NCBI GenBank assembly: GCA_017464025.1
Contig: JAFUEI010000032.1
Location: forward strand, 1-50,942
Reading direction: 5' to 3'
DNA: 50,942 nucleotides
Source: Paludibacteraceae bacterium
GTDB lineage: Bacteria > Bacteroidota > Bacteroidia > Bacteroidales > Paludibacteraceae
This document shows positions 3,402-50,942 of the stretch, piece by piece. Position 1 is the first letter of the stretch. Each line of letters starts with the position of its first letter. A program made the translations under genes and the position numbers. The notes below the pieces were generated by a model. The model had not been told where the DNA came from and did not search any database. It saw only the letters and a program-made list of their open reading frames with translations.

Positions 3402-3421
3402 ACTAAAAAACACCTACGAAT

Positions 3422-5173: not shown

Positions 5174-5209
5174 TGTAACAGACTACAGACAATCAAAACA
5201 GCAAGAGTT

Positions 5210-6709: not shown

Positions 6710-6710
6710 G

Positions 6711-8225: not shown

Positions 8226-8248
8226 CCCTGCAAACACAACCACGTGAT

Positions 8249-9853: not shown

Positions 9854-9874
9854 CAACCTCTGATTACACGTATC

Positions 9875-11026
9875 ATGAAAACATCCAAATTTGCCCTTGT
9901 ATCGGTGATGCTATGCTTCTTCACCATGGGCTTCGTTGACCTTGTAGGCATTGCGAGCAACTATGTGCAGCAAGACCTCGGTCTGAGTCACTCCCAGGCG
10001 AACATCATGCCTTCGTTAGTGTTCTTCTGGTTTCTGATCTTCTCGGTGCCTACGGGCATGCTGATGAACAAAATAGGCAGGAAGAAGACTGTGCTTCTGT
10101 CGATTGCGGTGACGGTGGTGTCGCTGCTGTTGCCGTTGTCGGGCGAGAGCTACGGGCTGATGCTTTGTGCGTTCTCGCTGCTTGGCATAGGCAACGCACT
10201 GATGCAGACCTCGCTGAACCCGCTGGTGTCGAACATCGTGACGGGAAACCTGTCATCGACGCTGACCTTCGGCCAGTTTGTGAAGGCGATAGCCTCTTTC
10301 CTGGCGCCTTATATAGCGATGTGGGGTGCGACGGCGGTGATACCTTCGGCGGGTCTGGGCTGGAAGGTGCTGTTTCCGGTGTATGCCGTAGTCGGCATCG
10401 TAGCGATTCTGGCTCTTGCCTTTACTCCTATTCATGAGGAGCCAGTGGCGAAAGGCTCGACGTTTATCGAGTGCTTCAAGCTGTTAGGCAAGCCGTTTGT
10501 GCTGCTGTGTTTTTTGGGCATCATGTGCCATGTGGGCATTGATGTAGGCACGAACACGACTGCGCCTAAGATACTGATGGAGCGCTTGGGTATGGACCTT
10601 GCGTCAGCCGGTTTTGCGACCTCGCTGTATTTCATCTTCCGTACGATAGGCTGTCTGAGCGGTTCGGCGATACTGCGGCTGATACCGGAGAAGGTGTTCT
10701 TCGCGATATCGGTCATGATGATAGTAGCGGCGATGATACTGCTGGCGGCAGGAAGTTCGCAGTGGGTGCTGTACACGGGCATCGCACTGGTGGGCTTCGG
10801 CAACAGTAACGTGTTCTCCATCTGCTTTGCGCAGGCTCTGAACCATGACCCCGAGCACAAGAACGAAATCTCCGGTCTGATGATAATGGGTCTGTTCGGC
10901 GGCACGATATTCCCGCTCTGTATGGGCTTCATGTCGGACCTGGCGGGTACGCTCGGCGCGGTGCTCGTCATGGCCGTCGGTGCAGCCTACCTCACATTCT
11001 TCACCCTTAAAATCAAGAAACAATGA
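9875..11026 (+). CDS. Sugar MFS permease, FucP/GluP-like (fructose uptake)
   Basis: Inner-membrane sugar:H+ symporter of the major facilitator superfamily, in the position of the fructose permease BT1758. The 383-aa product is hydrophobic throughout, with about 12 predicted transmembrane segments. The loop after segment 2 reads MNKIGRKKTV, the usual MFS basic motif. The N-terminus (CFFTMGFVDLVGIASNYVQ) is typical of the FucP family. It overlaps the fructokinase gene by 4 nt (ATGA), indicating coupled translation. Fructose as substrate is inferred from the operon. Confidence 0.88.
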   Translation: MKTSKFALVSVMLCFFTMGFVDLVGIASNYVQQDLGLSHSQANIMPSLVFFWFLIFSVPTGMLMNKIGRKKTVLLSIAVTVVSLLLPLSGESYGLMLCAFSLLGIGNALMQTSLNPLVSNIVTGNLSSTLTFGQFVKAIASFLAPYIAMWGATAVIPSAGLGWKVLFPVYAVVGIVAILALAFTPIHEEPVAKGSTFIECFKLLGKPFVLLCFLGIMCHVGIDVGTNTTAPKILMERLGMDLASAGFATSLYFIFRTIGCLSGSAILRLIPEKVFFAISVMMIVAAMILLAAGSSQWVLYTGIALVGFGNSNVFSICFAQALNHDPEHKNEISGLMIMGLFGGTIFPLCMGFMSDLAGTLGAVLVMAVGAAYLTFFTLKIKKQ

Positions 11027-11925
11027 ACAAATACGTAATAGGAATAGGGGAGGCGCTGTTCGACTGTCTCCCTGAAGGGCGCAAACTGGGCGGCGCTCCG
11101 GCAAACTTTGCTTATCATGTCTCGCAGTTCGGGCTGAACGGTTGTGCGATATCGGCCATCGGCAAGGATGAACTGGGCGAAGAGATTGTTGAGAAATTCA
11201 ATGCGGTGCACCTGAACCATGTGCTACCCGTTGTGGAGCAGCCGACCGGCACGGTGAAGGTGACGTTAGACGGCAAGGGCGTGCCCCAATATGAGATATG
11301 CCTCGGCGTGGCCTGGGACAACATTCCGCTGACGGACGAGATGGTAGAGATAGCCCGCAACGCGCAGGCGGTATGCTTCGGTTCGCTTGCACAGCGGTCG
11401 GAGCGGAGCCGGGCCACGATTCAGGCCTTCCTGAACGCCACGCCCAAGGACGCTCTGCGGGTGTTTGATATCAATCTGCGGCAGTCGTGGTACACGGCAG
11501 AGGTGATAGCCGAGTCGCTGCAACGGGCGAACATCCTGAAGATAAACGACGAGGAACTGGATGTAGTGGCAACGATGCTGTTGGGCGAGTCCACGATACC
11601 CGGACAGCTGATAGCGGAAGATGCGGCCAAGACGCGTCGTGTATGCCGCGAGCTGATAAGCCGTTATGACCTTGAGATGCTGATACTGACTTGCGGAGCC
11701 ATCGGGTCGTATGTGTTCACCCTCGAGGAGGAGAGCTATATCGCCACTCCGAAGGTGAAGGTGGCGGACACCGTGGGTGCCGGCGACAGCTTCACGGTGA
11801 CTTTCGTGGTCCAACTGCTGTCGGGCAAAGCGATCAGGGAAGCACACCGGAAGGCGGTGGCGGTATCGGCGTTCGTATGCACGCAGAACGGTGCGATGCC
11901 TGTCCTGCCGGAGGAGCTGAAATAG
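11023..11925 (+). CDS. Fructokinase, PfkB family
   Basis: Phosphorylates fructose with ATP in the cytoplasm, the last step encoded by the operon. The 300-aa product has the PfkB/ribokinase fold: GIGEALFDCLPEG at the N-terminus, GGAPANFAYHVSQFG (sugar-binding motif 1), DINLRQSWY in the middle, and DTVGAGDSF near residue 250, whose Asp is the catalytic base. The length is normal. It is the last gene of the fructan operon. A strong hairpin begins 15 nt after its stop. Confidence 0.92.
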   Translation: MNKYVIGIGEALFDCLPEGRKLGGAPANFAYHVSQFGLNGCAISAIGKDELGEEIVEKFNAVHLNHVLPVVEQPTGTVKVTLDGKGVPQYEICLGVAWDNIPLTDEMVEIARNAQAVCFGSLAQRSERSRATIQAFLNATPKDALRVFDINLRQSWYTAEVIAESLQRANILKINDEELDVVATMLLGESTIPGQLIAEDAAKTRRVCRELISRYDLEMLILTCGAIGSYVFTLEEESYIATPKVKVADTVGAGDSFTVTFVVQLLSGKAIREAHRKAVAVSAFVCTQNGAMPVLPEELK

Positions 11926-32467: not shown

Positions 32468-34789
32468 ATGAATATGCGCAGACTATACCTCCTGGTGCTG
32501 GTGCTGATGCCCGCCCTGACTGTTTTTGCAAGGCTGCCCATGGGCGGCTGGAAGATACATCTGGCCTACACCGATGTCATGCAGGTGGAGCAGGCTCCCG
32601 GCAAGGTGTATGGCCTCTCCGACGGAGCCTTGTTCTCGGTGGACAAGCAGACGGAGGAGATTCTGTATTACAGCAAACTGACAGGCCTGAGCAGTATGAA
32701 TATCGTGCGTATGTGCTACGACGAGGCCGGCGGCCGGCTGCTGCTCTTCTATGCCAACGGCAATATCGACCTGATGGACGATGAAGGCAACGTGGAGAAC
32801 ATTGCCGACCTCTATACCACGCAGATGAGCGAGAGCAAGCAGGTGAACGATGTGCTGATTCTCGACCGCGAGGCGCTGTTGGCCATGGATTTCGGCATTG
32901 TGGTCATCAACCTCAAAAAGGAGGAGATACACGATACCTATTATATAGGTGCGAATGCCGCCCCCGTGCAGTTGGCAGCCTTGGCTGCCGACCGCGACTC
33001 GGTGTATGCCGCTTCCGCCGGCGCCCTCTATTCGGCCGCCCGCAATTCCCAATTGATTGATTTCTCCAACTGGCACAGCCTGACATCGCTGCCCGGAAAA
33101 GGCAGTATAACGCAGCTGGCGGTGTATGCCGATACGCTGTGTATGCTGCGCGACAGCACGCTCTATATGCGCACGGCCGGCGGTTGGCAAAACCGGTCGG
33201 GCGACTTGCGCCTTGACGCTTTCAGCGTGAGCGGCGGCCGGCTGATGATGCATGGCGGCGGGCAGCATGTGCTGCTGACGGCCGGTGCGCCGGCCGACAC
33301 GCTGCGCTGCCACTCGGGGGCGACGGATGCCGTGTATGACGCAGCCGGCCGTTGCTGGTGGTTTGCCGCCGTTGGAAGCGGTGTGGGGCGCTATAATGCC
33401 GACCATTCTACGGCCGCCTACCAGCCTGTCGGGCCGAGCAACAACATCCCCTACCGCCTGCGCTTCCTGCACGACCGGCTGTATATGGTGGCGGGCGGAT
33501 ACAAAGACCTCAATATCCGGCGCACGCCGGGAGCGGTGAGTATCTATAACGGGGAGACATGGCAGAATGTATCCAACGGATATTTCAACTATTTCACAGA
33601 CATCGAAGCCGTGGCTTTCTGCGACGTGATGCCCCTTCGCGACGACCCGTCGCACTATTTTGTGACATCGCTGAGCAACGGCTTGATAGAGATGCGCAAT
33701 GATGCGTATTACGCATGGCATTACAGCGTAAACAGCGGGTTGGCCACGATGTATGAGCCTCGGGCGGAGGTATATACGTGGGTGGATGCCCTGATGGCCG
33801 ACAGCCGCAACAACCTCTGGATGTTCAACAACACCACCACCGTCAATCCGCTCAAGATGCTCACAGCCGACGGGAAATGGTATGCCTTCCCGTTTGCGGA
33901 GGGCAACGGCGACAGGGTGCGCGTGAAGAATATCCTGCCTTCGGCCAAGGAAGAAAACATGCTGTTTGTGCTGCGCTTCATGGGCGAGTCGGGCGGCATC
34001 TATGTGTATGACCATAACGGCACGTATGCCAATCTGTCAGACGACCGCTCGGCCTTCCATGCGCGTTTTGAGGACCAGCGGGGCAACATCATCGCCCCCT
34101 CGCGCATCTGGAGCGGTGTCATCGACCTCAACGGAGCGCTCTGGGTGGGTACCAATGCGGGTGTGCTCTGCTTCCCGACGCCGGAAGACCTGCTGTCGTC
34201 CAACAAGTGCCGCCGCATCACCATGCGCCGTGACGACGGCACCAATCTGCTGGATTACATGCTGGACAACGAGACCATCGAGGCGCTGGCTGTGGACGGA
34301 CAAAACCGGATGTGGATAGGCACGCTCTCGTCGGGCGTCTATCTGATGGATATCCAGAATGACGATGCCGTCACCGTCGCGCACTACACCACGGAGAATT
34401 CTATCCTGCCTTCCGATGAGATAAAGGCGCTTGCCATCAACCAGGCCACGGGAGAGGTGTTTATCGGCACCTCCAAAGGGCTGGTCTCCTATCAGAGCGA
34501 TGCGGCCGAGGCGGCTCCCGACTACGGCGACGTGTATGCCTACCCCAATCCGGTGCGCCCCGACTTCAGCGGCGTCATCACGATAGCGGGGCTGGTGGAC
34601 AACTCGGTGGTGAAGATTCTCAATCAGGCGGGCGAGTTGGTGTGCGAGACGCGCAGCAACGGCGGTATCGTCGTCTGGGACGGATGCAACCCGCAGGGGC
34701 GGCGTGTGGCGGCCGGAGTATATACGGCGGTGGCCATTACGGCCGACGGCAGCCGCAGCGGCACCACGAAGATACTGATAATGCGTTGA
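32468..34789 (+). CDS. porZ: PorZ-like type IX secretion system propeller protein
   Basis: The 773-aa product has a signal peptide (LYLLVLVLMPALTVFA), then two beta-propeller regions with repeats of the two-component-regulator propeller type (VYGLSDGALFSVDKQTEEILYYSKLTGLS; ALWVGTNAGVLCFPTPEDLL; IEALAVDGQNRMWIGTLSSGVYLM). The end is a FlgD/CTD-like beta domain: YAYPNPVRPDFSGVITI, WDGCNPQGRRVAAGVYT. This layout fits PorZ, an outer-membrane partner of the PorU sortase that recognises anionic LPS. The name rests on architecture. The presence of T9SS cargo at 46963-50547 supports it. rdgB ends 29 nt upstream and the acyltransferase begins 4 nt downstream. Confidence 0.7.
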   Translation: MNMRRLYLLVLVLMPALTVFARLPMGGWKIHLAYTDVMQVEQAPGKVYGLSDGALFSVDKQTEEILYYSKLTGLSSMNIVRMCYDEAGGRLLLFYANGNIDLMDDEGNVENIADLYTTQMSESKQVNDVLILDREALLAMDFGIVVINLKKEEIHDTYYIGANAAPVQLAALAADRDSVYAASAGALYSAARNSQLIDFSNWHSLTSLPGKGSITQLAVYADTLCMLRDSTLYMRTAGGWQNRSGDLRLDAFSVSGGRLMMHGGGQHVLLTAGAPADTLRCHSGATDAVYDAAGRCWWFAAVGSGVGRYNADHSTAAYQPVGPSNNIPYRLRFLHDRLYMVAGGYKDLNIRRTPGAVSIYNGETWQNVSNGYFNYFTDIEAVAFCDVMPLRDDPSHYFVTSLSNGLIEMRNDAYYAWHYSVNSGLATMYEPRAEVYTWVDALMADSRNNLWMFNNTTTVNPLKMLTADGKWYAFPFAEGNGDRVRVKNILPSAKEENMLFVLRFMGESGGIYVYDHNGTYANLSDDRSAFHARFEDQRGNIIAPSRIWSGVIDLNGALWVGTNAGVLCFPTPEDLLSSNKCRRITMRRDDGTNLLDYMLDNETIEALAVDGQNRMWIGTLSSGVYLMDIQNDDAVTVAHYTTENSILPSDEIKALAINQATGEVFIGTSKGLVSYQSDAAEAAPDYGDVYAYPNPVRPDFSGVITIAGLVDNSVVKILNQAGELVCETRSNGGIVVWDGCNPQGRRVAAGVYTAVAITADGSRSGTTKILIMR

Positions 34790-39374: not shown

Positions 39375-39438
39375 TTTTCTCCTCCGTTTTCTCACTCTTC
39401 GGGCTCTTTTCTCCTCCGTTTTCTCACTCTTCGGGCAC
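39375..39438. repeat. 32-nt tandem duplication covering the 3' end of the GH20 gene
   Basis: The sequence starting ttttctcctccg occurs at 39375 and again at 39407, a 32-nt period with near-perfect identity. The second copy includes the GH20 stop codon and its last codons (PEE), so the 3' end of the gene has been duplicated. Confidence 0.8.
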
Positions 39439-41835
39439 GGAATGGGTGGTGTTGCTCTCCTGGCCGTAGAGGAATGCCTTGGCGTTGATGAGGGGCGCAT
39501 CGGCGGCGAAGGGGCCGGTATAGCGCGGTGAGGCGGCATCGGGCTCGCTGCCGTCAAGCGTATAGCGGATGGCGGCCTCGGGGTAGGGGCAGTTCATGCG
39601 GATGGTGTCGCCCTCGCGCAGGATGCCGGGTTGTGGCAGGTGGAAGCGGATGCCCATGCGGTGCAGGCGCGGAATCTCGTATTGCCACAGTTGCGTGTTG
39701 AAGCGGTTGAGCGCCGCCTCATCCGCAGTCTCCGCTGCTTCCTGCGCGGTCAGGCTGCGGAAGTTCCACGCGCGGGCGGCGGTGGCGAGCAGCTTGGGGA
39801 AGATATACTCCTCTAATTGGTCGCTGTTGCGCACCGTCTCGCTCCACAGCTGGGCCTGCACCCCGCGCAGGTTGCGGGCCGAGTCGGGAATGAGCTGCAC
39901 CTTGTCCGATTGGGCATATTGTCTTACGTCGCGCTCCTCGCCCCGCATCGTGCGTTTCACGGAGAGATACAGCGAGTCGGGCCGCAGCTCCCAGGCCTGG
40001 TATTCGTCCACGTAGCCGCCCCAGTTGAGGCCGCGCTCCTCTTCGTGGTTGACGTAGCACATGTCCAAGTAGAGGTTGCACACGCTGCATATCATCACGG
40101 GATAGCCGGCGTTGGCTAACCGGTAGGGCTTCTCGTCGCCCCGCCATTCGGGCACGCTGTTCCAGGCGTAGGTCACCACGCCTTTGCCCGCAAAGCGCGG
40201 ATTGGGTTGCCCGCGGCGGAAGGCTACCTCTTCCCAGCCGGCCGCTTCGATGCCGTATTGCGCCAGCATCTGCACCACGGCCTCAAGGAAGGAGTCCTTC
40301 AGGTTGGCCACATCTTCGGCTGTCACCTGCTGCAGGGAGGCGGCCGGCATGCCCGGTTTCTGTGTCTCAACGGCCTTTGAGGCGATATATTCTGCCACCT
40401 TGGGGGAGCCTGACCAGGCTCCGCGCGGCACCTCATCGCCGCCCACGTGGAAGAGGGTGAGGGGCACAGCCGCTTCGCTATACATGGCTGCCACCTCGTC
40501 TATCACTTTCTGCGCAAACGTATAGCACGACGGCAGGGCGATGCATATCACGTTGTCGGTATAGTGTTGGGCGCTTACGTAGCGCGACGTGTCCTGAAAG
40601 TCGGAGAGCAGATACTCTTCCGCCTTGGCCGTGTCGGTGCCGATATAGCGGTAATAGCGGGCCTCCATGGCCTTGATGGCGGCACGCGAATGGCCGGGCA
40701 TGTCAATCTCCGGCACGATGCGAATGGCGTGGCGGTCGGCATAGCGCAGCAGTTCGATGAAGTCGCTGCGCGTGAGGTAGCCGTTGGCGGAGGCCTTGCG
40801 CTCGTCGGGATCCCAGCCGCCCGAATACATCGGGTAGAGGCAGTCGCGCTCGTCGGCCGTATAGCCGCGGCGGGAGCCTACAGCGGTCAGCTCCGGCAGA
40901 CCGGGTATCTCAAGGCGCCAGCCTTCGTCGTCGGTCAGGTGCAGGTGCAGCACATTCATCTTGTAGAGGGCCATCACGTCGATGAGTCGCAGTATCTCCT
41001 GCTTGGGGGTGAAGTTGCGGGCGATGTCGAGCATGAAGCCTCGGTGGGGTGTGTCGGGCCGGTCGTCTATCTCGGCGCAGGGGCACAGCGGCTGGTTCTC
41101 GCGGAGCATGCGGAGCGTCTGCCCGGCGTAGAAGCGGTGGCCCGTGAGGAATACCGTGTCGGGGGTGATGACGAGGCGGTAAGCCTCGGCTGCGGTGAGG
41201 CTGCTGTCGGGGATATATACCTCTGCGGCGCGGTCAAGACGGCAGGTGCCGCCGGTGTAGCGGATATGCTTCGGCACGGGCAGCAGGTTTATACGGTCGG
41301 CAGGCAGCGGCTCTGTGTCGGCAAAGCGGCTGTTGCGGCGGTACATCTCCCCGCCGCCGGCATAGGGGTAGTGGGGCACATGACGGTGGAATTCGTGCCC
41401 GTCGGAGCTATATATATAGTGTATAGGCACGCTTGCGGGCCGGCCTTGGCGGAAGATGCCGAACGGCCCCTGCGGAGCCGCGGTGCGGCGCATGATGTTG
41501 CCTTTGTAGCGTAAGAGAAAGGTGCGCGTCTGGCCGGGGGCCAGCGGCTGCCAGCGGCGGGTGGGGCCGAAGCTGTGTTAGGATGCCTGCAGTTGGGTGA
41601 CAACGGCCTGGGCCGTGTCCGACGGCACGGGCTCCACCGACATCTGGTTCCAGTAGAGCATCCAGTCGGCGAAAAGCGTATCGCGGGAGGTGTTGGTGAG
41701 CGTGAGGCGGCTCTCACAGAGGTTTTTGCCGTCAAGGTCGTTGGCTATGTGCTGCCAGGTCAGGCTTACGGGCGCTTCCGGCCGGCAGGCGGCTAACGCA
41801 AGGCAGAGAAGAGGAAGATAATGAGCAGGCTTCAT
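39424..41835 (-). pseudogene. GH20 beta-N-acetylhexosaminidase interrupted by an in-frame TAA
   Basis: The reading frame of 803 codons encodes a GH20 lipoprotein that would release N-acetylglucosamine or N-acetylgalactosamine outside the cytoplasm. Codons 1-85 (from 41835) give the signal peptide with lipobox LALAAC and part of a beta domain (TLTNTSRDTLFADWMLYWNQ). A TAA stop at 41580-41578 then interrupts. Without changing frame, coding continues as HSFGPTRRWQPLAPGQTRTF, the GH20b domain, and a full catalytic barrel: GFMLDIARNF, HLHLTDDEGWRLEIPGLPEL, PEIDMPGHSRA and FHVGGDEVPRG with the Asp-Glu catalytic pair. The downstream ATG at 41493 would give 689 aa without a signal peptide, so export would be lost. 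One base change (for example TAA from TAC) explains it. A sequencing error or readthrough is possible. Confidence 0.85.
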
Positions 41836-42158: not shown

Positions 42159-42291
42159 CACCGTAAAATTGTGCAATTGTGTCAATTTGTCCCCCTTTGC
42201 GGGATTCGTGTGGATGTTTTGTCAGAGTGTGATGCTGAAAAACGAGCGTTTGATAGCCGCAACGCAGGGGATGATGTGCAATAGGTCAGTT

Positions 42292-44238
42292 ATGAAAATT
42301 ATTTCGAAAACAGTGATGCAAAGAAACGCTCTCTTGTTTGCAACGCTTCTTCTCTTCTTATATCTCCCTTCTGTTTCTGCGCAGTCTCCCAAGCGCGAGA
42401 TGCGTGCCACGTGGCTGACGACCGTCCGAAGTGTGGACTGGCCCGTGATGAGTACGGGGGCCGCGGCCCAGAAGAAAGACATGCTCCGCATGCTTGACTC
42501 GCTGCAGACGCTCAATATGAACGTCGTCTGCCTGCAGGTGCGCTGCAATGCCGATGCCTTCTATCAGTCGGCCTACGAACCGTGGTCGGCGCTGCTGACA
42601 GGCAAGCGCGGCAAAGACCCGGGCTTCGACCCCTTGGGCTTCTGCATCGAGGAATGCCATAAGCGCGGTATGCAGTGCCACGCCTGGCTCAATCCCTATC
42701 GCTACAACAACAAGAAAGCCATGTGGGACGACGGCTGCGAGACAGGCTATGAATACACGCATCCCGAATGGCTCTTCCTGGCTCCGGCCGACAACTGCGT
42801 GGTGATGGATCCCGGCCTGCCCGAGGTGCGGCAGCGCGTAAAAGAAGTGGTGGGCGACATCCTCAACAAATATGAGGTGGACGGCATTCTCTTCGACGAC
42901 TATTTTTATCCTTACGGCGGCACAGCCAGTGCCGATGCCGCTTCCGCCGCCAAATACAAACCGGCCGGCATGACCGTGCAGGACTGGCGCCGCCAAAACG
43001 TTCAGCTCATGGTGCAGGATGTGTATGACACCATCCGGAGCGTCAAGCCGTGGGTCACCTTCGGCATCTCGCCCTTCGGCATCTGGACCAACGACACCTA
43101 TGTGGCGCGGCAGCACAACCTGACGCTGCCCAAAGGCATCGCCAGCTCGGCCAATATGTATGCCGAAATCTATTGCGACCCCGTCACATGGCTGGAAGAC
43201 GGCACGGTGGACTACATCTCGCCGCAGCTCTATTGGGCCACCAATTCGGGCCAGCCTTACGCCACGCTCTGCCAGTGGTGGGCCGACGTGGCCAACCGCT
43301 TCGGGCGGCACTTCTATTCCTCCATGTCCACCGACACCTACTCGCGCGGCAAGTTCACGCTCGATGAGATGCAGACCCAGACCGGCCTCAACCGCAGCTC
43401 TTCCAAAGACGACGCCTTCGGCTTTATCTTTTTCAATACGAAGGCCTATTGCTACGACACGAAGTTCCGCAAGGCCTTCCTCAAGAACGAGCTGAAGTAT
43501 CCGGCGCTGCCGCCTGCCGTCAACTGGAAGCCGGCTCCCGAACAGCCTATGGTGACCGACCTCACGGTGTCGGGGCAGAAACTGACGTGGAAACATGCCA
43601 ATAGCGGGCAGGTGCACTATGCCGTCTATGCCGTGCCTAACGCTTTCCGCAACCGTGCGCACATCTGGTCGGTGGCCGACGCATTGTTGGGCGTCACCTA
43701 TACGGAGGAATACACCCTGCCCGACCATATCGTACCTTCCGCTTGGACCATCGGCGTAAGTGTGCTTGACGGCTACAACAACGAGTATGCCCTCCGCCTT
43801 GCCGGCACTGCCGAGTTGACGGCCGAGCCTGCCGTACTCATTGCTCCCGAAGCCGATGCCGCCTGCCCTGCCTGGGAGAAGGTGGTGTTCAGCTGGGAAT
43901 ATCAGAAGCAGGCTGACAGCTACATCATCCAGATTGCAAGCGACCGCGGGTTCACGCAGTTGCTGGCTGTGCAGGAACTTACGGATAACTCGTTTGAAGC
44001 GTCGCGCCGCCTCAATCTGGCGGTGGCGGGCGACGGCGAGTACTGGTGGCGCGTAAAGACGCGGCAGCCCGACACGGGCGATGTGTGGTCGGAGCCCCGC
44101 CGTCTGGTTATTGATGCCGCCACCGGCCTCCTTACGCCGGCCGACACGCCGGCCCCGCGCAAGGTCATGCTCAACGGCACGATTTATATTGAGCACAACG
44201 GTTGCCGCTACACCACCACCGGCCTGAGAGTGCAGTAA
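42292..44238 (+). CDS. GHL10 (DUF187) glycoside hydrolase-like protein, exported
   Basis: The 648-aa product has a signal peptide (hydrophobic ALLFATLLLFLYLPSVSAQ). The GHL10 barrel covers about 35-390: REMRATWLTTVRSVDWP, NVVCLQVRCNADAFYQSAYEPWSALLTG, HAWLNPYRYN, YEVDGILFDDYFYPYGG, WVTFGISPFGIW and DYISPQLYWA. Two fibronectin/Ig-like parts follow (about 420-625). Members of this family are proposed or shown to cleave peptidoglycan glycan strands or other polysaccharides. Frames from 42169 are open, but 42292 gives the best signal peptide. The C-terminus (NGTIYIEHNGCRYTTTGLRVQ) resembles the short end of T9SS cargo proteins. It lies just upstream of the exported-protein set from 44342. Confidence 0.85.
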   Translation: MKIISKTVMQRNALLFATLLLFLYLPSVSAQSPKREMRATWLTTVRSVDWPVMSTGAAAQKKDMLRMLDSLQTLNMNVVCLQVRCNADAFYQSAYEPWSALLTGKRGKDPGFDPLGFCIEECHKRGMQCHAWLNPYRYNNKKAMWDDGCETGYEYTHPEWLFLAPADNCVVMDPGLPEVRQRVKEVVGDILNKYEVDGILFDDYFYPYGGTASADAASAAKYKPAGMTVQDWRRQNVQLMVQDVYDTIRSVKPWVTFGISPFGIWTNDTYVARQHNLTLPKGIASSANMYAEIYCDPVTWLEDGTVDYISPQLYWATNSGQPYATLCQWWADVANRFGRHFYSSMSTDTYSRGKFTLDEMQTQTGLNRSSSKDDAFGFIFFNTKAYCYDTKFRKAFLKNELKYPALPPAVNWKPAPEQPMVTDLTVSGQKLTWKHANSGQVHYAVYAVPNAFRNRAHIWSVADALLGVTYTEEYTLPDHIVPSAWTIGVSVLDGYNNEYALRLAGTAELTAEPAVLIAPEADAACPAWEKVVFSWEYQKQADSYIIQIASDRGFTQLLAVQELTDNSFEASRRLNLAVAGDGEYWWRVKTRQPDTGDVWSEPRRLVIDAATGLLTPADTPAPRKVMLNGTIYIEHNGCRYTTTGLRVQ

Positions 44239-44341: not shown

Positions 44342-45847
44342 ATGAAAAAACTCTTCATGTTTCTGACCGTGGCAGCCATGAGCGCAAGCCTGAGCGCTGC
44401 CGAAATGAACATCTACGCATCGGGTCTGAAGGCCGGTGATGTGGATGCGTCGAACAAGGTGGAGATCAACTATCTCCTTAATGCTCCCGCCACAGCCGTC
44501 ACGCTGCAACTCATCCAGAATGACGCTGTCGTAAAAGAAATCGCTATCACAGGCGAGGCCAATCTGACTAAGGGCGCGCACGCCGTTACCGTTGACCTGA
44601 GCGTTGCCGATGCCGGCACCTACAACTGGGCTATCAAGGCTGCCGCCGCCGCCAACGAGGGAACTGAACCCGTTTTGGTAGGTACTTTCGGTGATGCACA
44701 GGCAATGGGTCGTGCTGTAACCATTGACAAGAATCCTGAGAGTCCTTTCTACGGCAATGTCTATACCATCAACGGTAAGGCTGTTGGTGTGTATGGTTAT
44801 GATGCTGCTCTCAATCCGTTATTCGACACTATCGCTGTTGCCAAGAACGGTTGGGGCACCGGTAACTCCGCTCCTTGCCGTGGACGCGTAGGCGAAGACG
44901 GTCTGCTCTATCTCTGCGACTGGTCGGATTCCAATCCGAATGTACGTATCTTTAATCCCGCTACTCCTGCTGCTGACGCTGTTGATGTATTTGGTGGCAC
45001 GGCCTCGGGTTCAGATGGTATCATGGTAAATGAGGCAGGTGATACGATTAATGGTTCTATAGCATTCTGCTACCCTGTCGGTTCAGGTGAGAATACGGTA
45101 TTGTACACTTCCGATGAGGACTACAAGCAAGGTGGTAAACTGATGATTTACAAGTATGCTATCGGTGAGGCCAAGACTGCTTATACCAAGAAACCTGAAG
45201 TTGGACTGGCTGTAGGTGCCCTGACGGGTGGTGCTATTGCTAATCCCAATGTGACATTCCTTCCGTCTAAGACTGGCGGCTGGTGGGTTTCGCAGCACAG
45301 ATATTCAGATAGCAAAGGCAATCCTTCATTAATTCATATTGCCGGTGATACGGTCAATTATAATAGTGCTGGTGCCTTGGCAAATGCAACCGTTGGCTAC
45401 AATAACCAAGCTTCGTTTGATATCAACAACGAGCAGAACATTCTTATCTCCAGCACCAGCAATACCGTTTTCAGTGTTCTTGTATGGGATGTAGTATGGA
45501 CGGATGATGTTCCCGCTCTGACGCTGAAATACACTATTCCTTCGGGTTTCAACAACACGATGCTCCAGTGCGCTATCGATGAGGCGGGCAATATTTATGG
45601 TGTATGCGCGAACAAGCCTCTCACCATTTGGGCCCTGCCTAAGGCTGACAACAGCTGCGTAACGCCTGCCAAGAAAGCCAGCGTGCTCACCGTTGCCAAG
45701 GGCGCTACCGCTCTGGAGGACCTGACAGGTATGGCTCCCGGCCGTAAGGGCGTCTTCACCATCACCGGCCAGTATCTCGGCGAGAGCGTACAGAACCTGC
45801 CCGCAGGCATGTACATCGTGAACGGCCAGAAGATGATTATCCGCTAA
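44342..45847 (+). CDS. Exported propeller-module protein (family member 1), unknown function
   Basis: The 501-aa product has a signal peptide (MKKLFMFLTVAAMSASLSAA) and an Ig-like segment (about 21-105: MNIYASGLKAG to YNWAIKAAAAAN). A long beta-rich, probably propeller, region follows (about 118-435) with RAVTIDKNPESPFYGNVY, GEDGLLYLCDWSDSNP, ENTVLYTSDEDY, GGWWVSQHRYSD (Gly312 on), IDEAGNIYG and IWALPKADNS. The end (GVFTITGQYLGESVQNLPAGMYIVNGQKMIIR) is like the final strands of a T9SS sorting domain. Its N-terminus is closely similar to the gene at 50626, and the whole module to the C-terminal part of the 46963 gene. Codons in the middle favour GGT, GCT and CGT, as in highly expressed genes. 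I know of no named function. Confidence 0.8.
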   Translation: MKKLFMFLTVAAMSASLSAAEMNIYASGLKAGDVDASNKVEINYLLNAPATAVTLQLIQNDAVVKEIAITGEANLTKGAHAVTVDLSVADAGTYNWAIKAAAAANEGTEPVLVGTFGDAQAMGRAVTIDKNPESPFYGNVYTINGKAVGVYGYDAALNPLFDTIAVAKNGWGTGNSAPCRGRVGEDGLLYLCDWSDSNPNVRIFNPATPAADAVDVFGGTASGSDGIMVNEAGDTINGSIAFCYPVGSGENTVLYTSDEDYKQGGKLMIYKYAIGEAKTAYTKKPEVGLAVGALTGGAIANPNVTFLPSKTGGWWVSQHRYSDSKGNPSLIHIAGDTVNYNSAGALANATVGYNNQASFDINNEQNILISSTSNTVFSVLVWDVVWTDDVPALTLKYTIPSGFNNTMLQCAIDEAGNIYGVCANKPLTIWALPKADNSCVTPAKKASVLTVAKGATALEDLTGMAPGRKGVFTITGQYLGESVQNLPAGMYIVNGQKMIIR

Positions 45848-45869
45848 TCGTTTTTACGTAACCATTGCT

Positions 45870-45910
45870 ATTGGCTATGCCGGAGGCCGTGAACCTCCGG
45901 CGTAGCCAAT
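45870..45910 (+). terminator. 17-bp hairpin after the 44342 gene
   Basis: ATTGGCTATGCCGGAGG (45870-45886) pairs with 45894-45910 with a single T-G wobble around a 7-nt loop. It lies 22 nt after the stop. The T-run is missing, so termination is likely but not certain. Confidence 0.6.
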
Positions 45911-45979
45911 ACATTGACAATAGAGGGGAAGAGCCGAGGGGTTGGACCAAGATGATGGCAGGGGAGAGGAAAGAATCCG

Positions 45980-46079
45980 GTTGCTGACGGTCGGCAAGCG
46001 TCAGGCAACACATTTATAAAAGAAAGATGCAGAGAAAGATATGCAGACACTGCATCCTGCATCCGCCCTCCGCGAGGGC
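45980..46079 (+). other. Hairpin-rich leader before the 46121 gene
   Basis: GTTGCTGACG (45980-45989) pairs with CGTCAGGCAAC (45999-46009) with one bulge. GCCCTC-CGC-GAGGGC is a perfect hairpin at 46065-46079. I see no consensus -7 box in this gap and no gene. It may be a structured 5' leader. Confidence 0.4.
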
Positions 46080-46120
46080 ACACAGCGAAGGAAACAAACC
46101 ATCTAATAAACATATATACC

Positions 46121-46966
46121 ATGAGAAAAATCGTTACTCTACTGGCAATTGCGGTGCTGGGGCTGACGACGGCCGCTGCACAGCAGTTGCGTGTCGGCAA
46201 AGCAACTATGCTGAGCGGCACAAGCGAAGGCGGCTGCTATCATGCCGTCTTCTCGCCGGCAGGCGACTATCTGCTCACTTCGGCAGAGAACTACGACGGT
46301 CTGCTCAAGCATGACCTGAAGAGCGGTATGAAGACGCGCTTGAGCCAGGCCCGCGGTGCAGGCTACGGCGTGCGCATCAGCCGCGACGGCAAGCAGATTA
46401 CGGCCAACCGCTTCGAGTATCGCGGCAACCTGCGCTACACGGCTATCGACCGTATCCAGGTGCGCAGCGGCAAGACCACGGTGCTGCGTGCTCCGCAGCG
46501 CGAACAGGTGTCGCCCGATGCAGAGACGGCGCAGTTGTATGTCACCACCAACGGCTACGAGATGACCGTGCACAACGGAGCCTCCGAAACCGTTATCCGC
46601 CCCAACGGCGAGGAGAGCTATTTCTGGTGCTCCGTTTCGCCTGACGGCAAGCATATCATGTATGTCACGGCCCGCCACGGGGCGCAGGTGTGCGACATCA
46701 ACGGCAACAATCCCGTCTTCATGGGTATCATGAACGCTCCGCAGTGGATTGACAGCGAGCGCGTCATTGCCATGCGTGACGAAGACAACGGCGACCAGGT
46801 GGTCAAATCGTCGCTCGTGGTGCGCAGCATCAGCAATCCGCGCGAGGTGCAGACTCTTGTCACCGGACAGAAGATTTCGATGTATCCCGCCGTCTCGGCT
46901 GACGGCCGGCGCATCGCATTCAACAACGAGAAAGGTCAAATCTTTTTGATGGAGGTGGAGCAATGA
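46121..46966 (+). CDS. Exported TolB-like beta-propeller protein
   Basis: The 281-aa product has a signal peptide (MRKIVTLLAIAVLGLTTAAA) and WD40-like/PD40 repeats: HAVFSPAGDYLLTSAENYDGLLKHDLKSG, YGVRISRDGKQITANRF, CSVSPDGKHIMYVTARHGAQVCDINGN and YPAVSADGRRIAFNNEKGQIFLM. It would fold as a small propeller in the periplasm or at the surface and bind a protein or glycan. There is no sorting domain. It overlaps the amidase gene by 4 nt (ATGA), so the two are made together and may form a complex. Function unknown. Confidence 0.8.
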   Translation: MRKIVTLLAIAVLGLTTAAAQQLRVGKATMLSGTSEGGCYHAVFSPAGDYLLTSAENYDGLLKHDLKSGMKTRLSQARGAGYGVRISRDGKQITANRFEYRGNLRYTAIDRIQVRSGKTTVLRAPQREQVSPDAETAQLYVTTNGYEMTVHNGASETVIRPNGEESYFWCSVSPDGKHIMYVTARHGAQVCDINGNNPVFMGIMNAPQWIDSERVIAMRDEDNGDQVVKSSLVVRSISNPREVQTLVTGQKISMYPAVSADGRRIAFNNEKGQIFLMEVEQ

Positions 46967-49900
46967 AACGGATGATGACACTCTTCATAGCCGCACTGAC
47001 GCTGACGTGCGCTATGGCAGCCGACCTCACGGGTCTGAAAATCTATATCAACCCCGGTCACGGTGGCTTCGACTCCAACGACCGCAGCATCTGGACCGTC
47101 AACGTACCGGCCGTCTGGACCGACTCGGCCGGCTATTGGGAGTCCAAATCGAACTTCGTGAAAGGCATCTACCTAAGGCGTATGCTGCAGCAGGCCGGTG
47201 CCACCGTCATCTTCTCGCGCGAACGCAACGACAGCGGTATCCGCGACATCGACGAGTTCAAGAAGAAACACCCCAACGCCACACAGCATGAGATTGACTC
47301 CGTCATGGTGGGCGGCGACCGCGACCTGAGCGCCATCGCAGAAGAGGCCAACGCCTACAAGGTGGACCACTTTCTGAGCATCCACTCCAATGCGCTCAAC
47401 GGCAAGACCAACTATCTGCTGATGCTCTTCCGCGGCGAGAACGACAAACCGCAGACCGCTCCCAGCAACGAGATGGCCGCTATGGCCGGCAGCGTCCAGA
47501 TACAGAACCAGCTGACCACGTGGACAAGTTCCAAGCCCCTCATCCGTGGCGACCTCAGTTTCTATGGCGACGGCTGGGGACTGGGGGTGCTGCGTCCGCT
47601 TACGGTGCCCGGCCATCTGTCGGAAGGCTCCTTCCACGACTATGCGCCTGAGACCCACCGACTCATGAACAACGACTACTGCCACCTCGAGGCGCTCCGT
47701 ATGTTCCAGTATTTCCACAAGTGGTTCCAGCGCGACCTGCCGCAGACAGGCACCATCTCGGGCTACGTGAAGAGCAAGAACGAGCTGGTGGATGTGCTCA
47801 ACCAGCCCAAGTTCTACTATATCCCCGGCTCCGAGGACCAGTGGCTGCCGCTCAACGGCGCCCTCGTCAAGCTGATGAACAAAACGGGCGACGTCGTGCT
47901 GCAGACCGTGCGCACCGACAACTGGTACAACGGCATCTTCGCCTTCTACGATGTGGCCCCGGGCGACTACAAGGTACAGGCCGAACTGGAGCCCTACAAG
48001 ACCGTCACGATGGATGTCAGCGTGAAGGCGGAAGAGATAGCCACCGTGAAGATGCACCTGCAGAATCTGCACATGGAGGTGGACGACTATCCCGAGCCGG
48101 AGCAGGCCGGTGTGGTAGCCACTGACACCTATGAGTTCGAGCCTGCCGGCGACAAGGTGGAGACACTGCCCGGCACCATTCTGCGTGCCGTTTACCGCAA
48201 GGGAGGCGTCTATGTCCTTACTGCCGACAACAAGGTGCTCCGGTGCACCAACTCGTCGCTGACAGTAGAGGCTACGCTGCCTATGCCGGCCGACGTCACA
48301 CTGACCGATATCGCATTCTCGGCTGACGACTACCTGATGGGTCTGTCCGAGCAGGCCGTCTATGCATGGGATGAAGATGACCTCAATCCGGCCAAGTTGT
48401 ACGACGCTCCCGCTGCATGGGGCAAGGCATTTGCCGTCAGTGGCCCGCTGTGGAAAGCGCGCCTGTATGTGGTCAACGCGGCCGGCAACGGCTTCGAGGC
48501 CGTGCAATATACCGACGGCAAGAGCGACATCAAACTCTCGCAGAAGGCCTTTGCCTCTACGCTTGACCTGAGCGGTGTGCGCCCTGTAGTGGCCCCCGCA
48601 GGTGCCGTGTGCATCACCGTGCAAGGCAAGACCTACGAAGTAGGCTTTGACTGGACGGCAGGCACCCTGACGCAGAAGCAACTCTCGGAGGATGGTGCAG
48701 CGGGCGCCAACTATCTGCGCTATGCACGACGGCTCTATATGGTCCAGCCTGTGCTGACCGAAGGCTGCAAGGCCTCCTTCCGCCTGCTGGACGTCACAAG
48801 CGGTATTGACAAGGCCGTGGTGGCTTCTGCCGTCTTTCCCGAAAACGGCCTGGGCGATGCACCTGTCACCTACCAGACGGCGATGGCTTTCGTGAGCGGC
48901 TATGAGATGCATGTCTATCTGCTTGCAGAGGGCGAAGGCTATCAGCATTGGCGTCTGCTCTCCACTCCGGTGGCCGACATCTATGCCGGCGAGGTCAGCT
49001 GGGGCGAGAAAGAGATATCGTTCCGTCTGAACGAGGACGCGCTCGACGTGGTGCTCGCCATCGAGCAGGATGGAGGCACGGCCGACAGCAAATCGCTCGG
49101 CGCACTGAAGAAAGGTTACCATACGGTGCCCAACCCGTTTGAGGGCAAGCAGATGGATGCCTATAGCATCACGGCTACGGCCCGGCCCGTGGCCTTCCCG
49201 CAGCTGATCAGCAACGACGACAAGCAGATGCAGTTCTATAGCGCCTACGGCGTGACAGTGGACCGCACACCCTCGTCGCCCTACTTCGGCCGTATCTATG
49301 TCACCGACCGTTCGGGCGGCCTGACCTCCGAAGGACCGGGCGAGCACCGCACCACCACGCGCGGCATCTATGTGCTCGGCTCTGACTTCACCGATGTCAC
49401 CGCCCAGGGCAGCGATGCCTACAGCGGCAATGTGGACTGGGGAAAGAACAATGGAGGCAAATATGAGACCGCTCCCCGCAAGGTGTCGGTAGGTCCTGAC
49501 GGCACGGTCTATGTCGTGTCAAGCGTGCTCGGCACCACCAATGTATATATGATGAATCCGGCCGACCCGAAGGCCGACTTCCAGGCTGTATTTGGAGGCA
49601 AATATGCCAAAGACTCGCAGACCAAAGAATTCACCGGCCAGCTCAAGAAGGGCAAATATGTGGTGGCCAACCAGGTGATGGACTGCTACGTCATGGGCAA
49701 GGGTGAGCATACGGTGCTCTACACCATGGACCGCAACATCTCGCTCGGCACTCCCTGCACCGGCATTGCACAATATAATATAGGTGAGCTGGAAGCTCTC
49801 CCGTGGGAGCAGGCTCCGACGGCCACCGTATATAACGACATGACCAGCGGCAACCTCATGCAGAATGGCAACGGCCAGATTTATCCCGACGGTCGCGGCG

Positions 49901-50547
49901 GCTGGTGGATGAGCCAGTACCGCTACGATGCTTCAGTGGCTGTGCCTCCGCTTATCCATATCAACAAAGACGGCGAGCGCGACTTCAACCTGGGTACGGG
50001 CATCGCTGCCTGCCGCCAGGGCGCTATGGCGGTCACACCCGACGGCAACAGACTGGCCATCGTCATCTCGGCCGGCCTTACCAAGGTGTTCGACGTGAAC
50101 TACGACAACGGTGTGCCCGAACTGACTCCCGCCTATGATATCCAGTGGGGCACATCGGACGATATCCTCTTCTGCATGGACTTCGATGCGGCCGGCAACC
50201 TCTATATGGCCGACAATCTGAAGGAGCGCCTGCGTGTCTATTCGCTGCCCAAACTGGACAACAGCTACACCACCCGCATCTCGCTGCACGAAGAAACCCA
50301 CAATGCCGTGCAGACCGTTCCGGCCGCCGAGGGTATCCGCCTCTGGCCCAATCCGGCCGAGACCGAGGTGCGCATCGTGTCGGCTTCCGCAGTGGAGCAG
50401 GTGCTTGTCTATTCGCTCACCGGCCAGCTGCAGATGCGTCTTGAAGCAACCGACGTACTCAATGTGTCCGGCTTGCAGCGCGGCGTCTATGTCGTGGAAG
50501 TGCATACAGCTGCCGGCACCGGCGTGGAGCGGCTGCTGAAGAAATAA
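46963..50547 (+). CDS. Multidomain N-acetylmuramoyl-L-alanine amidase with propeller modules and T9SS sorting domain
   Basis: The 1194-aa exported protein would cut the amide bond between MurNAc and the stem peptide. After the signal peptide (to about 20) comes an Amidase_3 domain (25-260): YINPGHGGFD (His33), a Glu in YWESKSNF (Glu60), HFLSIHSNA and LSEGSFHDYAPE match the zinc ligands and catalytic Glu. A carboxypeptidase-regulatory-like domain follows (about 265-370: GTISGYVKSKNE, APGDYKVQAELEPYKTVTM). A beta-rich propeller-like region covers about 405-690. The Ig-plus-propeller module shared with the 44342 protein covers about 700-1110 (GYHTVPNPF, YGVTVDRTPSSPYFGRIYV, EHTVLYTMDRNI, GGWWMSQYRYD, FDAAGNLYMADN). 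The end is a T9SS type A sorting domain (LWPNPAETEVRIVSAS, VYSLTGQLQMRL, LQRGVYVVEV). The fusion is unusual for an amidase. Confidence 0.85.
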   Translation: MKRMMTLFIAALTLTCAMAADLTGLKIYINPGHGGFDSNDRSIWTVNVPAVWTDSAGYWESKSNFVKGIYLRRMLQQAGATVIFSRERNDSGIRDIDEFKKKHPNATQHEIDSVMVGGDRDLSAIAEEANAYKVDHFLSIHSNALNGKTNYLLMLFRGENDKPQTAPSNEMAAMAGSVQIQNQLTTWTSSKPLIRGDLSFYGDGWGLGVLRPLTVPGHLSEGSFHDYAPETHRLMNNDYCHLEALRMFQYFHKWFQRDLPQTGTISGYVKSKNELVDVLNQPKFYYIPGSEDQWLPLNGALVKLMNKTGDVVLQTVRTDNWYNGIFAFYDVAPGDYKVQAELEPYKTVTMDVSVKAEEIATVKMHLQNLHMEVDDYPEPEQAGVVATDTYEFEPAGDKVETLPGTILRAVYRKGGVYVLTADNKVLRCTNSSLTVEATLPMPADVTLTDIAFSADDYLMGLSEQAVYAWDEDDLNPAKLYDAPAAWGKAFAVSGPLWKARLYVVNAAGNGFEAVQYTDGKSDIKLSQKAFASTLDLSGVRPVVAPAGAVCITVQGKTYEVGFDWTAGTLTQKQLSEDGAAGANYLRYARRLYMVQPVLTEGCKASFRLLDVTSGIDKAVVASAVFPENGLGDAPVTYQTAMAFVSGYEMHVYLLAEGEGYQHWRLLSTPVADIYAGEVSWGEKEISFRLNEDALDVVLAIEQDGGTADSKSLGALKKGYHTVPNPFEGKQMDAYSITATARPVAFPQLISNDDKQMQFYSAYGVTVDRTPSSPYFGRIYVTDRSGGLTSEGPGEHRTTTRGIYVLGSDFTDVTAQGSDAYSGNVDWGKNNGGKYETAPRKVSVGPDGTVYVVSSVLGTTNVYMMNPADPKADFQAVFGGKYAKDSQTKEFTGQLKKGKYVVANQVMDCYVMGKGEHTVLYTMDRNISLGTPCTGIAQYNIGELEALPWEQAPTATVYNDMTSGNLMQNGNGQIYPDGRGGWWMSQYRYDASVAVPPLIHINKDGERDFNLGTGIAACRQGAMAVTPDGNRLAIVISAGLTKVFDVNYDNGVPELTPAYDIQWGTSDDILFCMDFDAAGNLYMADNLKERLRVYSLPKLDNSYTTRISLHEETHNAVQTVPAAEGIRLWPNPAETEVRIVSASAVEQVLVYSLTGQLQMRLEATDVLNVSGLQRGVYVVEVHTAAGTGVERLLKK

Positions 50548-50564
50548 CACAACCTTACCCGCAG

Positions 50565-50592
50565 GGGGAAGTGCCCTTTGGGGCGCTTCCCC
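50565..50592 (+). terminator. Terminator hairpin after the amidase gene
   Basis: GGGGAAGTGCCC pairs with GGGCGCTTCCCC across loop TTTG with one wobble pair. It begins 18 nt after the stop. Only a short T stretch follows. Confidence 0.65.
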
Positions 50593-50625
50593 GTTGCAGA
50601 ATATAAACCATAAAAACACACAATT

Positions 50626-50942
50626 ATGAGACGAATCCTACTTCTGTTTGTCAGTTGCGTGATGGCGCTGTCCATGTCCGCAGCCGAACTCAACATCTAT
50701 GCCTCCGGACTGAAAGCCGGCGGTATGGGTGCCGACAAGAAAGTGCAGGTGGACTACCTGCTCAATGCTCCGGCCACCACGCTGGAGATTCATGTGCTCA
50801 ATGCAGACAACTCTGTTGCCCTCAATGTGCCTCTTACCGATGCCGCGCTGCTCACCAAAGGCCGTCATACGGTAGCTGTGGACGTAAGCACACTCACTGT
50901 CGGATCCTACAACTGGGAAATCAAAGCCGCTGCCGCCGCCAC
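50626..50942 (+). CDS. Exported propeller-module protein (family member 2), cut by the window end
   Basis: The first 105 codons are present. The signal peptide (MRRILLLFVSCVMALSMSAA) is followed by LNIYASGLKAGGMGADKKVQ, YLLNAPATTLEIHVLNAD, LTKGRHTVAVDVS and SYNWEIKAAAAA. This aligns along its full visible length with residues 1-105 of the 44342 protein without an evident gap of more than a few residues. It is therefore a tandem paralogue placed after the amidase gene. The rest lies outside the window. Confidence 0.85.
   Translation, partial: MRRILLLFVSCVMALSMSAAELNIYASGLKAGGMGADKKVQVDYLLNAPATTLEIHVLNADNSVALNVPLTDAALLTKGRHTVAVDVSTLTVGSYNWEIKAAAAA

Follow-up and report, generated by a model that had tools for sequence, protein, structure and literature searches.

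The 50,942-nucleotide window analysed here, that is, the whole stretch of DNA under study, is an entire contig (C8, positions 1-50942) of a draft genome of a Paludibacteraceae bacterium. Its right-hand part carries genes grouped around an N-acetylmuramoyl-L-alanine amidase predicted to be exported by the type IX secretion system (T9SS). Judging by its gene content, its homologies, the conservation of gene order, the domain architecture and co-occurrence, this region very probably represents the upstream half of a polysaccharide-utilization locus for the peptidoglycan of other bacteria, in which the enzymatic steps, the substrate and the cell compartments are predicted from sequence. The organism appears to have lost MurA and MurB, and this gene absence suggests that it probably depends on the salvage route. 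A first-pass annotation of the same DNA had proposed a cell-surface or cell-wall system. The link to the surface and the wall stands, but the evidence (SusC/SusD, NamZ, an SSF symporter, the linkage of MurQ and the loss of MurA and MurB) points to uptake and salvage of the peptidoglycan of others.

In what follows, genomes carry G-numbers (G000 is the window's own: 2.11 Mb, 71 contigs, 89.4% complete), fetched loci L-numbers and contigs C-numbers. The end of contig C8 was placed at position 50942 on account of the gene left open there and of the region spanning C8:1-50942.

The amidase and its neighbouring genes

From left to right the region comprises a GH20 gene on the minus strand, then genes for a GHL10 protein, the Ig-propeller protein P1, a TolB-like protein, the amidase and a second Ig-propeller protein, P3, which runs to the contig end. 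The features, with the domains of the amidase, are as follows:

39424..41493, minus strand: GH20 beta-N-acetylhexosaminidase, divergent from the cluster (PF00728, E=1.7e-84)
42316..44238, plus strand: predicted glycan-strand cleaving enzyme of family GHL10, with a signal-peptide-like N-terminus (PF02638, 2e-65)
44342..45847, plus strand: P1, exported protein with Ig domain and six-bladed propeller
45869..45911, plus strand: 18-bp hairpin in the gap that separates the P1 and TolB-like genes
46121..46966, plus strand: TolB-like PD40 propeller (PD40, 4.1e-9), overlapping the amidase start
46963..50547, plus strand: multidomain N-acetylmuramoyl-L-alanine amidase, predicted to be T9SS-exported (PF01520, 5.9e-10, and PF18962, both over cut-off)
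47041..47679, plus strand: Amidase_3 catalytic domain of the amidase, residues 27-239
47848..48063, plus strand: carboxypeptidase-regulatory/CNA-B-like sandwich of the amidase, residues 296-367 (PF13620 at 28.3 bits, under the 32.3 cut-off)
48133..48960, plus strand: first propeller of the amidase, about residues 391-666
48979..49197, plus strand: Ig-like domain of the amidase, common to P1 and P3, residues 673-745
49195..50247, plus strand: second propeller of the amidase, homologous to P1, residues 745-1095
50341..50526, plus strand: T9SS type A sorting domain of the amidase (PF18962 and TIGR04183 over cut-off)
50626..50942, plus strand: P3, second Ig-propeller gene, truncated by the contig end (50% identical to P1 over 105 aa)

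The mechanical open reading frame (ORF) of the GHL10 gene begins at 42169, and the likely start, 42316, was read from the sequence.

Amidase_3 enzymes act on the bond between N-acetylmuramic acid (MurNAc) and L-alanine. The corresponding profile matches the amidase at 39.9 bits against a curated cut-off of 27, and the residues found at what we take to be the Amidase_3 active-site set (His, Glu and His as zinc ligands plus a catalytic Glu) are almost invariant: H33 and E60 are kept in 92 of 93 aligned catalytic domains, with one gap, and H141 and E221 in all 93. The C-terminal tail scores 31.6 bits with PF18962 (cut-off 27) and 35.8 bits with TIGR04183 (cut-off 23), and a signal peptide can be read by eye. 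Moreover, the genome encodes T9SS machinery, with SprA at 2666.8 bits and a PorZ N-propeller in the window at 32468. The sorting tail and the presence of this machinery thus support the predicted T9SS export of the amidase. T9SS-like C-termini had been claimed for two members of the set; this holds for the amidase, whereas the C-terminus of P1 matched no T9SS sorting-domain model. A search of PDB sequences with the amidase profile gave two weak matches only, and consequently the folds assigned to the protein rest on models; in the structure model the catalytic domain is poorly predicted, several stretches having pLDDT values below 50.

Comparison of sequences and structures confirmed that P1, the P3 fragment and, in its C-terminal part, the amidase share a module, as first noticed from an N-terminal segment, and identified it as an Ig domain followed by a six-bladed propeller. 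P1 matches no Pfam or NCBIfam family over cut-off. Structural matches of the Ig-propeller modules include 3hrp and 4hw6 (titled 'auxiliary nutrient binding protein'). The former, a structural-genomics protein of Bacteroides thetaiotaomicron, is remote from P1, with a TM-score of only 0.38-0.46, and is absent among the 50 structural matches listed for P1; it is 15% identical to the amidase propeller. Position and fold suggest that the Ig-propellers bind peptidoglycan, and we propose P1 as a surface peptidoglycan-binding protein.

The GHL10 profile matches its protein at 221.4 bits (cut-off 27.9), and the sole PDB sequence match is Cwp19 (5oq2, E=2.3e-76 over 383 residues), shown to be a peptidoglycan lytic transglycosylase that cleaves glycan strands (PMC6016235). 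During division of Escherichia coli, amidases are reported to yield denuded glycans, which lytic transglycosylases and DigH degrade (PMC12288456). By homology, the GHL10 enzyme of the window would cut bare glycan strands, and the predicted two-step logic, an amidase followed by an enzyme for denuded glycan, is the same as in E. coli. The GH20 enzyme is predicted to remove terminal N-acetylglucosamine (GlcNAc). The 46121 protein is TolB-like only: its identity with the true TolB of the Tol-Pal system was rejected, TIGR02800 scoring 23.4 bits against an equivalog cut-off of 343.15.

The stretch that contains the hairpin (45848-45960) has a folding z of -3.98, and none of 200 shuffles folds equally well. 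The hairpin is possibly a terminator-like or processing element separating P1 from the TolB-amidase pair. A promoter scan was uninformative (4 found, 4.6 expected). Elsewhere in the window, a PorZ-like protein (32468-34789, plus strand; PF21544, 2e-41), a T9SS component, is encoded some 7.5 kb before the GHL10 gene, and a fructan-type utilization locus at 282-11925 (plus strand) comprises SusC, SusD, DUF4960, two GH32 enzymes, a major facilitator superfamily transporter and a PfkB kinase.

Continuation of the locus and its conservation in Bacteroidales

The first frame on contig C35 of the same genome (G000:C35:3-1112, L034) is open-ended, matches P1 residues 122-499 and is followed by SusC, SusD, DUF4623, NamZ, an SSF symporter and SecDF. 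Thus, a tandem SusC-SusD pair stands together with degradative enzymes, among them a NamZ with both of its domains far over cut-off (NamZ_N 5.8e-72, 241.8 bits, cut-off 26.9; NamZ_C 2.4e-29, 103.5 bits, cut-off 25). Synteny and matching gene ends indicate that C8 probably runs into C35, the opening frame of which would be the remainder of P3; judging from alignments to P1, about 17 P3 residues would be missing between the two contigs. The adjacency is supported by locus L065 of Paludibacteraceae RGIG4898, the closest named relative among the matches listed (67% identity in the best segment), which carries on one contig GH20 (minus strand), GHL10, TolB-like protein, amidase, a double Ig-propeller protein, SusC, SusD, DUF4623 and NamZ.

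A third cluster of this genome, on contig C33 (L152, L056), encodes in a row a BadF-type kinase, MurQ, SusC, SusD, an unknown protein, a PKD protein and a GHL10 protein, after which come an InlB-repeat protein and a TolB-like/Amidase_3 protein. The T9SS tail of the latter scores 25.9 bits against the cut-off of 27. MurQ is over cut-off and the adjoining kinase below it. This gene row ties the MurNAc-6-phosphate etherase genetically to the amidase/GHL10 pair. Because of the amidase, the Cwp19-like GHL10 enzyme, NamZ and the MurQ linkage on C33, we read the substrate as peptidoglycan, and since the cell's own peptidoglycan is out of reach for an enzyme that lies beyond the outer membrane, we read the target as foreign.

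According to this scheme, the surface-held amidase, its TolB-like partner and the Ig-propeller modules would grip foreign peptidoglycan, and the amidase would cut the MurNAc-L-Ala bond to give peptides and bare glycan. GHL10 would cut the bare strands into short pieces, which SusC/SusD, aided by Ig-propeller and DUF4623 lipoproteins, could import across the outer membrane. From the ends of these pieces GH20 and NamZ, the latter belonging to a family of exo-muramidases, would strip GlcNAc and MurNAc; the SSF symporter would move MurNAc inwards, where it may be either burnt via the BadF-type kinase and MurQ or made into UDP-MurNAc by AmgK/MurU-like enzymes. One gene of the genome does encode an AmgK-like kinase with a fused RapZ domain, and the gene after it a MurU-like uridylyltransferase, all below curated cut-offs; the best NCBIfam match of the uridylyltransferase is MurU, and that of the kinase is RapZ, with AmgK second. 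Such a pair would permit UDP-MurNAc synthesis without MurA and MurB. This route need not be specific to carriers of the locus, since APH-family kinases occur in all 37 genomes of our sample of the genus (G000 included).

A second NamZ gene, on contig C61 (L159, 3035-9803, minus strand), adjoins genes for an FAD-linked oxidase with Fe-S domains and for a DUF4301 protein, and similar sets were found in G019 (L161) and G027 (L163). The oxidase, whose best family matches are glycolate-oxidase-like and below cut-off, could oxidise the D-lactate released by MurQ. We considered whether DUF4301 might be a missing enzyme of MurNAc salvage and rejected this, as 75 of 80 genomes have it, whether or not they carry the locus, and no PDB match was informative. 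DUF4301 appears either as a single stretch of ~650-690 bits or, with an internal part left unmatched, as two of ~365 and ~260 bits, and these two forms split the carriers in the genus roughly as the MurC tree (see below) does.

A scan of GTDB genomes with a 15-row amidase alignment yielded 374 relatives, the best 80 of which were kept and correspond to 79 distinct loci. Their gene content was tallied by ORF calling and with profiles built from the window and C35 proteins. The titles of all 79 loci are Bacteroidales or groups belonging there, many of the best-matching relatives being titled 'Paludibacteraceae bacterium' and coming mostly from the ruminant gut. This survey supports the earlier supposition that the fold is shared and goes with amidase and GHL10 genes in this order of bacteria. 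The TolB-like propeller and the amidase are directly adjacent, with the propeller upstream, or fused in 76 of the 79 loci (fused in 17). We distinguish 47 type A loci, with catalytic domains at least 45% identical, from the other 32, which are divergent (type B). Among loci with at least 4 kb of upstream sequence, GHL10 is found within three upstream genes or fused in 37 of 63 (type A, 27 of 37; type B, 10 of 26), and among those with at least 9.5 kb downstream, SusC and SusD lie close to the amidase, whether before or after it, in 16 of 19 type A loci versus 1 of 12 type B loci. SusC-SusD and the amidase share a contig in 26/79 loci. In the fetched stretches, GHL10, TolB-like protein, amidase, SusC, SusD and DUF4623 occur together at 24/79 loci, accompanied by NamZ in seven, by the SSF symporter in five and by GH20 in six; GH20 lies within four upstream genes in 8/79. 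The Ig-propeller family, regarded at first as defining the set, is placed directly 3' of the amidase in 15/79 loci, and the centre is formed rather by the amidase, GHL10 and SusC/SusD.

A different arrangement of these genes, SusC-SusD-DUF4623-GHL10-TolB-amidase, was observed in five loci of Prevotellaceae or Prevotella (L084, L085, L096, L102, L119) and in Hoylesella buccalis (L111). In G019 a single frame of 2248 aa (L044; C34, 327-7073, minus strand) unites amidase, propeller, GHL10 and Ig-propeller. The locus is also present in a cultured species, Bacteroides nordii WAL 11050 (L078), although in this draft the GHL10 frame is only 467 aa long and is followed by an unlabelled frame of 218 aa.

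A surface peptidoglycan amidase with binding propellers might alternatively serve as a bacteriolytic weapon that kills or lyses neighbours, nutrition being secondary, and at L037 a T9SS subtilase adjoins the locus. However, SusC/SusD, NamZ, the SSF symporter and the MurQ linkage fit uptake, and the outer membrane shields the peptidoglycan of Gram-negative prey, which would limit live killing to other targets. We regard a weapon as quite improbable.

Co-occurrence with the absence of MurA and MurB

Strong matches to the amidase family (E <=2.2e-65) occur in 10 of the 37 genus genomes: G000, G008, G010, G011, G014, G019, G022, G023, G024 and G027. NamZ, and MurQ over cut-off, are confined to the same ten. 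MurA and MurB had no match in any of the ten, G000 included, and were found in the same 23 of the 27 others (MurA over cut-off in 20, as fragments in 3). The carriers that lack both include three genomes at 98% completeness (G011, G014, G027). All ten have MurC (299-367 bits), with G000 (322.8, full length) and G008 falling under the cut-off of 335.1. The absence of MurA and MurB with MurC kept is the gene pattern of MurNAc auxotrophy and suggests that these bacteria may be auxotrophs. The naive probability of the association (10/10 carriers versus 14 absences in 37) is 2.9e-6, a value that ignores common ancestry.

As a by-product of the MurQ search, a GlmS-type frame (606-658 aa, with a weak SIS match) was noted in 23 of 27 non-carriers versus 1 of 10 carriers (G008); no search aimed at GlmS was made. 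Three such frames were fetched (L249-L251) and proved to be GlmS far over cut-off. The absence of GlmS from nine carriers, G000 among them, is a lead at this stage. It fits the pattern of Tannerella forsythia, and such cells would need both peptidoglycan amino sugars from outside.

These distributions bear on two other explanations. GH20 enzymes act on several GlcNAc glycans and serve chitin or mucin as well. The locus might therefore be directed at a different glycan containing amino sugars, for instance chitin or mucin, with the amidase incidental, and GHL10 proteins are not always active on peptidoglycan, the Deinococcus protein DogH being reported to act on starch (PMC9967864). Both facts weaken the identification of peptidoglycan as the substrate. 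However, NamZ, MurQ and the losses of MurA and MurB track the amidase family in the genus, and an amidase fused to GHL10 speaks against an incidental role; we consider this explanation the least probable of those weighed here. Self cell-wall remodelling is hardly more credible. Every walled bacterium has to separate its daughter cells, and an amidase followed by cleavage of denuded glycan is the pathway of E. coli division (PMC12288456), so that the amidase and GHL10 might act on the septal peptidoglycan of the cell itself. The T9SS tail would nevertheless put the amidase outside the outer membrane, the locus holds SusC/SusD, NamZ and a symporter, and the 27 of 37 congeners without a strong amidase match must also divide, which led us to reject a pure cell-wall-maintenance role as the best reading.

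Beyond the genus, MurA was sought in 50 of the 79 locus-bearing genomes, and MurB and MurC in 43 of those 50, for which there are no completeness values. Both MurA and MurB are missing from 26 of these 43 further carriers and present in 15, while G087 has MurB only and G095 MurA only. The titles of the 26 are Paludibacteraceae (11), Candidatus Colicola of the same family (1), Bacteroidales (6), Prevotellaceae (7) and Muribaculaceae (1), and in 19 of them MurC gives a strong match over its full length. In the MurC tree the seven Prevotellaceae group together as a single clade at 100/100. Six of them gave weak MurA matches (94-116 bits), and G091 gave none at all; we considered these matches as divergent MurA and rejected the idea, as the two examined are AroA (326.5 and 311.9 bits versus a cut-off of 287.25). 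The seven genomes probably come from termite guts, although their titles do not say so: one sample code also gave a metagenome-assembled genome (MAG) of Candidatus Symbiothrix, which we take to be a symbiont of termite protists.

MurA and MurB are kept in the Prevotella/Prevotellaceae carriers G075 and G106 and in those titled Bacteroides nordii, Parabacteroides, Dysgonamonadaceae, Barnesiella, Paludibacter (G080-G082) and Hoylesella buccalis, where the locus would consequently serve nutrition only. Most simply, the locus would have been gained first and MurA and MurB lost later. A MurC tree of 60 genomes, which as a single-gene tree may be wrong, had 21 carriers marked (the Prevotellaceae and G093 apart). 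The loss in these 21 does not form one clade but takes six changes, at least four of which are forced by well-supported branches. For instance, G007, with MurA and MurB and no strong amidase match, groups at 100/100 with G072 and G077, which have the locus and lack both genes. On balance we lean towards the view that whole lineages of gut Bacteroidales, namely ruminant Paludibacteraceae and a separate, probably termite-gut, clade of Prevotellaceae, would be obligate eaters of the cell walls of other bacteria that gained the locus and subsequently lost MurA and MurB, perhaps along with GlmS, MurNAc auxotrophy having thus arisen several times outside Tannerella. Their own wall would then be built solely with amino sugars that the surface amidase/GHL10/SusCD machinery obtains from the peptidoglycan of neighbouring cells.

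Several observations weigh against the reading of the locus as a peptidoglycan-salvage system on which its carriers depend. The 15 of 43 further carriers with both genes show that the locus does not imply their loss. The independent phylogenetic contrasts are too few (3-4) for significance: in the genus, 3 of 3 are concordant once three incomplete genomes are set aside and an average of 2.7 of 3 if they are kept (sign p 0.25), and overall 3.6-3.9 of 4 (sign p 0.125). The tree row nearest G000 is G013, which has MurA and MurB and no locus, at the weak support of 88/20. The genus distributions are also less sharp at low scores, where 9 of the 27 other genomes have weak matches to the amidase query (E 5.5e-8 or worse) and 24 more genomes have weak, sub-cut-off matches to the MurQ profile. 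Type A amidases are found in 7 of the 10 carriers of the genus, G014, G019 and G027 having other forms. As regards the locus, GHL10 lies near the amidase in no more than the 37 of 63 loci given above, the placing of P1 between GHL10 and the TolB-like gene recurs in 0 of 79, and the joining of C8 to C35 is itself deduced from synteny and gene ends.

It is also conceivable that the missing murA and murB reflect gaps in assembly or binning, the carriers being ordinary peptidoglycan makers that eat peptidoglycan as well. The genomes are mostly MAGs or drafts, and murA and murB are adjacent in G005 and others, so that one gap removes both. Four non-carriers of low completeness (G003, G016, G018 and G030; 75, 78, 54 and 84% complete) also lack both genes, and no strong full-length MurC was found in 7 of the 26 further carriers (G061, G067, G068, G073, G084, G086, G100), which may be incomplete assemblies or something else, e.g. 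cases of deeper loss. However, gaps would have to account for the loss of both genes in all ten carriers of the genus, the three at 98% completeness included, and in the 26 of 43 further carriers, 19 of them with strong full-length MurC; the lead that GlmS is mostly missing too points in the same direction. We therefore judge gaps to be an unlikely explanation and favour genuine loss of MurA and MurB in carriers of the salvage locus.

Known salvage systems and the meaning of the locus

The best parallel is T. forsythia, likewise a member of the Bacteroidales with MurQ and NamZ and without MurA and MurB. Its NamZ1 and NamZ2 have reportedly been linked to its salvage of MurNAc and peptidoglycan, together with MurTKQ and AmpG. 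This bacterium is described as lacking MurA and MurB and depending on external MurNAc (PMC7670621), and, more broadly, as lacking glmS, glmU, murA and murB while possessing an operon for MurT, MurK and MurQ (PMC5790795). The family of MurT is given in conflicting ways within the latter source, as the sodium symporter superfamily in its introduction and as the major facilitator superfamily in its discussion. As far as these descriptions extend, they concern uptake at the inner membrane, whereas here a SusC/SusD locus with a T9SS amidase, GHL10 and Ig-propellers is found in uncultured gut lineages; TonB and SusC are not named in PMC5790795 or PMC5388701, which deal with salvage in T. forsythia.

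With other SusC/SusD utilization loci the region shares a tandem SusC-SusD pair, surface lipoproteins, glycoside hydrolases and a symporter. It differs from them in its substrate, which would be peptidoglycan, and in its key enzyme, a T9SS amidase instead of a glycosidase. The GHL10 catalytic domain is common to Cwp19 and to DigH, which is presumably a GHL10 protein. Both act on the cell's own wall, DigH on denuded glycan as reported for E. coli (PMC12288456), whereas the enzyme described here forms part of an uptake locus and in one case shares a single protein with the amidase.

No MurNAc auxotroph other than T. forsythia was found among the open-licence PMC papers listed, and no peptidoglycan-utilization locus with SusC/SusD of such make-up in the open-licence PMC titles and beginnings of abstracts listed; for both, a report in a subscription journal is possible. 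DUF4623 and DUF4301 yielded no informative literature among open-licence PMC papers. What appears to be new here is the combination of a SusC/SusD utilization locus that would serve a new substrate with an auxotrophy like that of Tannerella, as predicted from gene content.

Peptidoglycan is a large and little-studied glycan pool in guts, and the locus names concrete genes for a secreted activity on it. Its occurrence in the cultured species B. nordii makes our reading testable. If true, the loss of MurA and MurB would turn the exchange of MurNAc into a strict dependency among gut bacteria. It might then be part of the reason why knowledge of such lineages comes mainly from MAGs, and it predicts a supplement for their culture.

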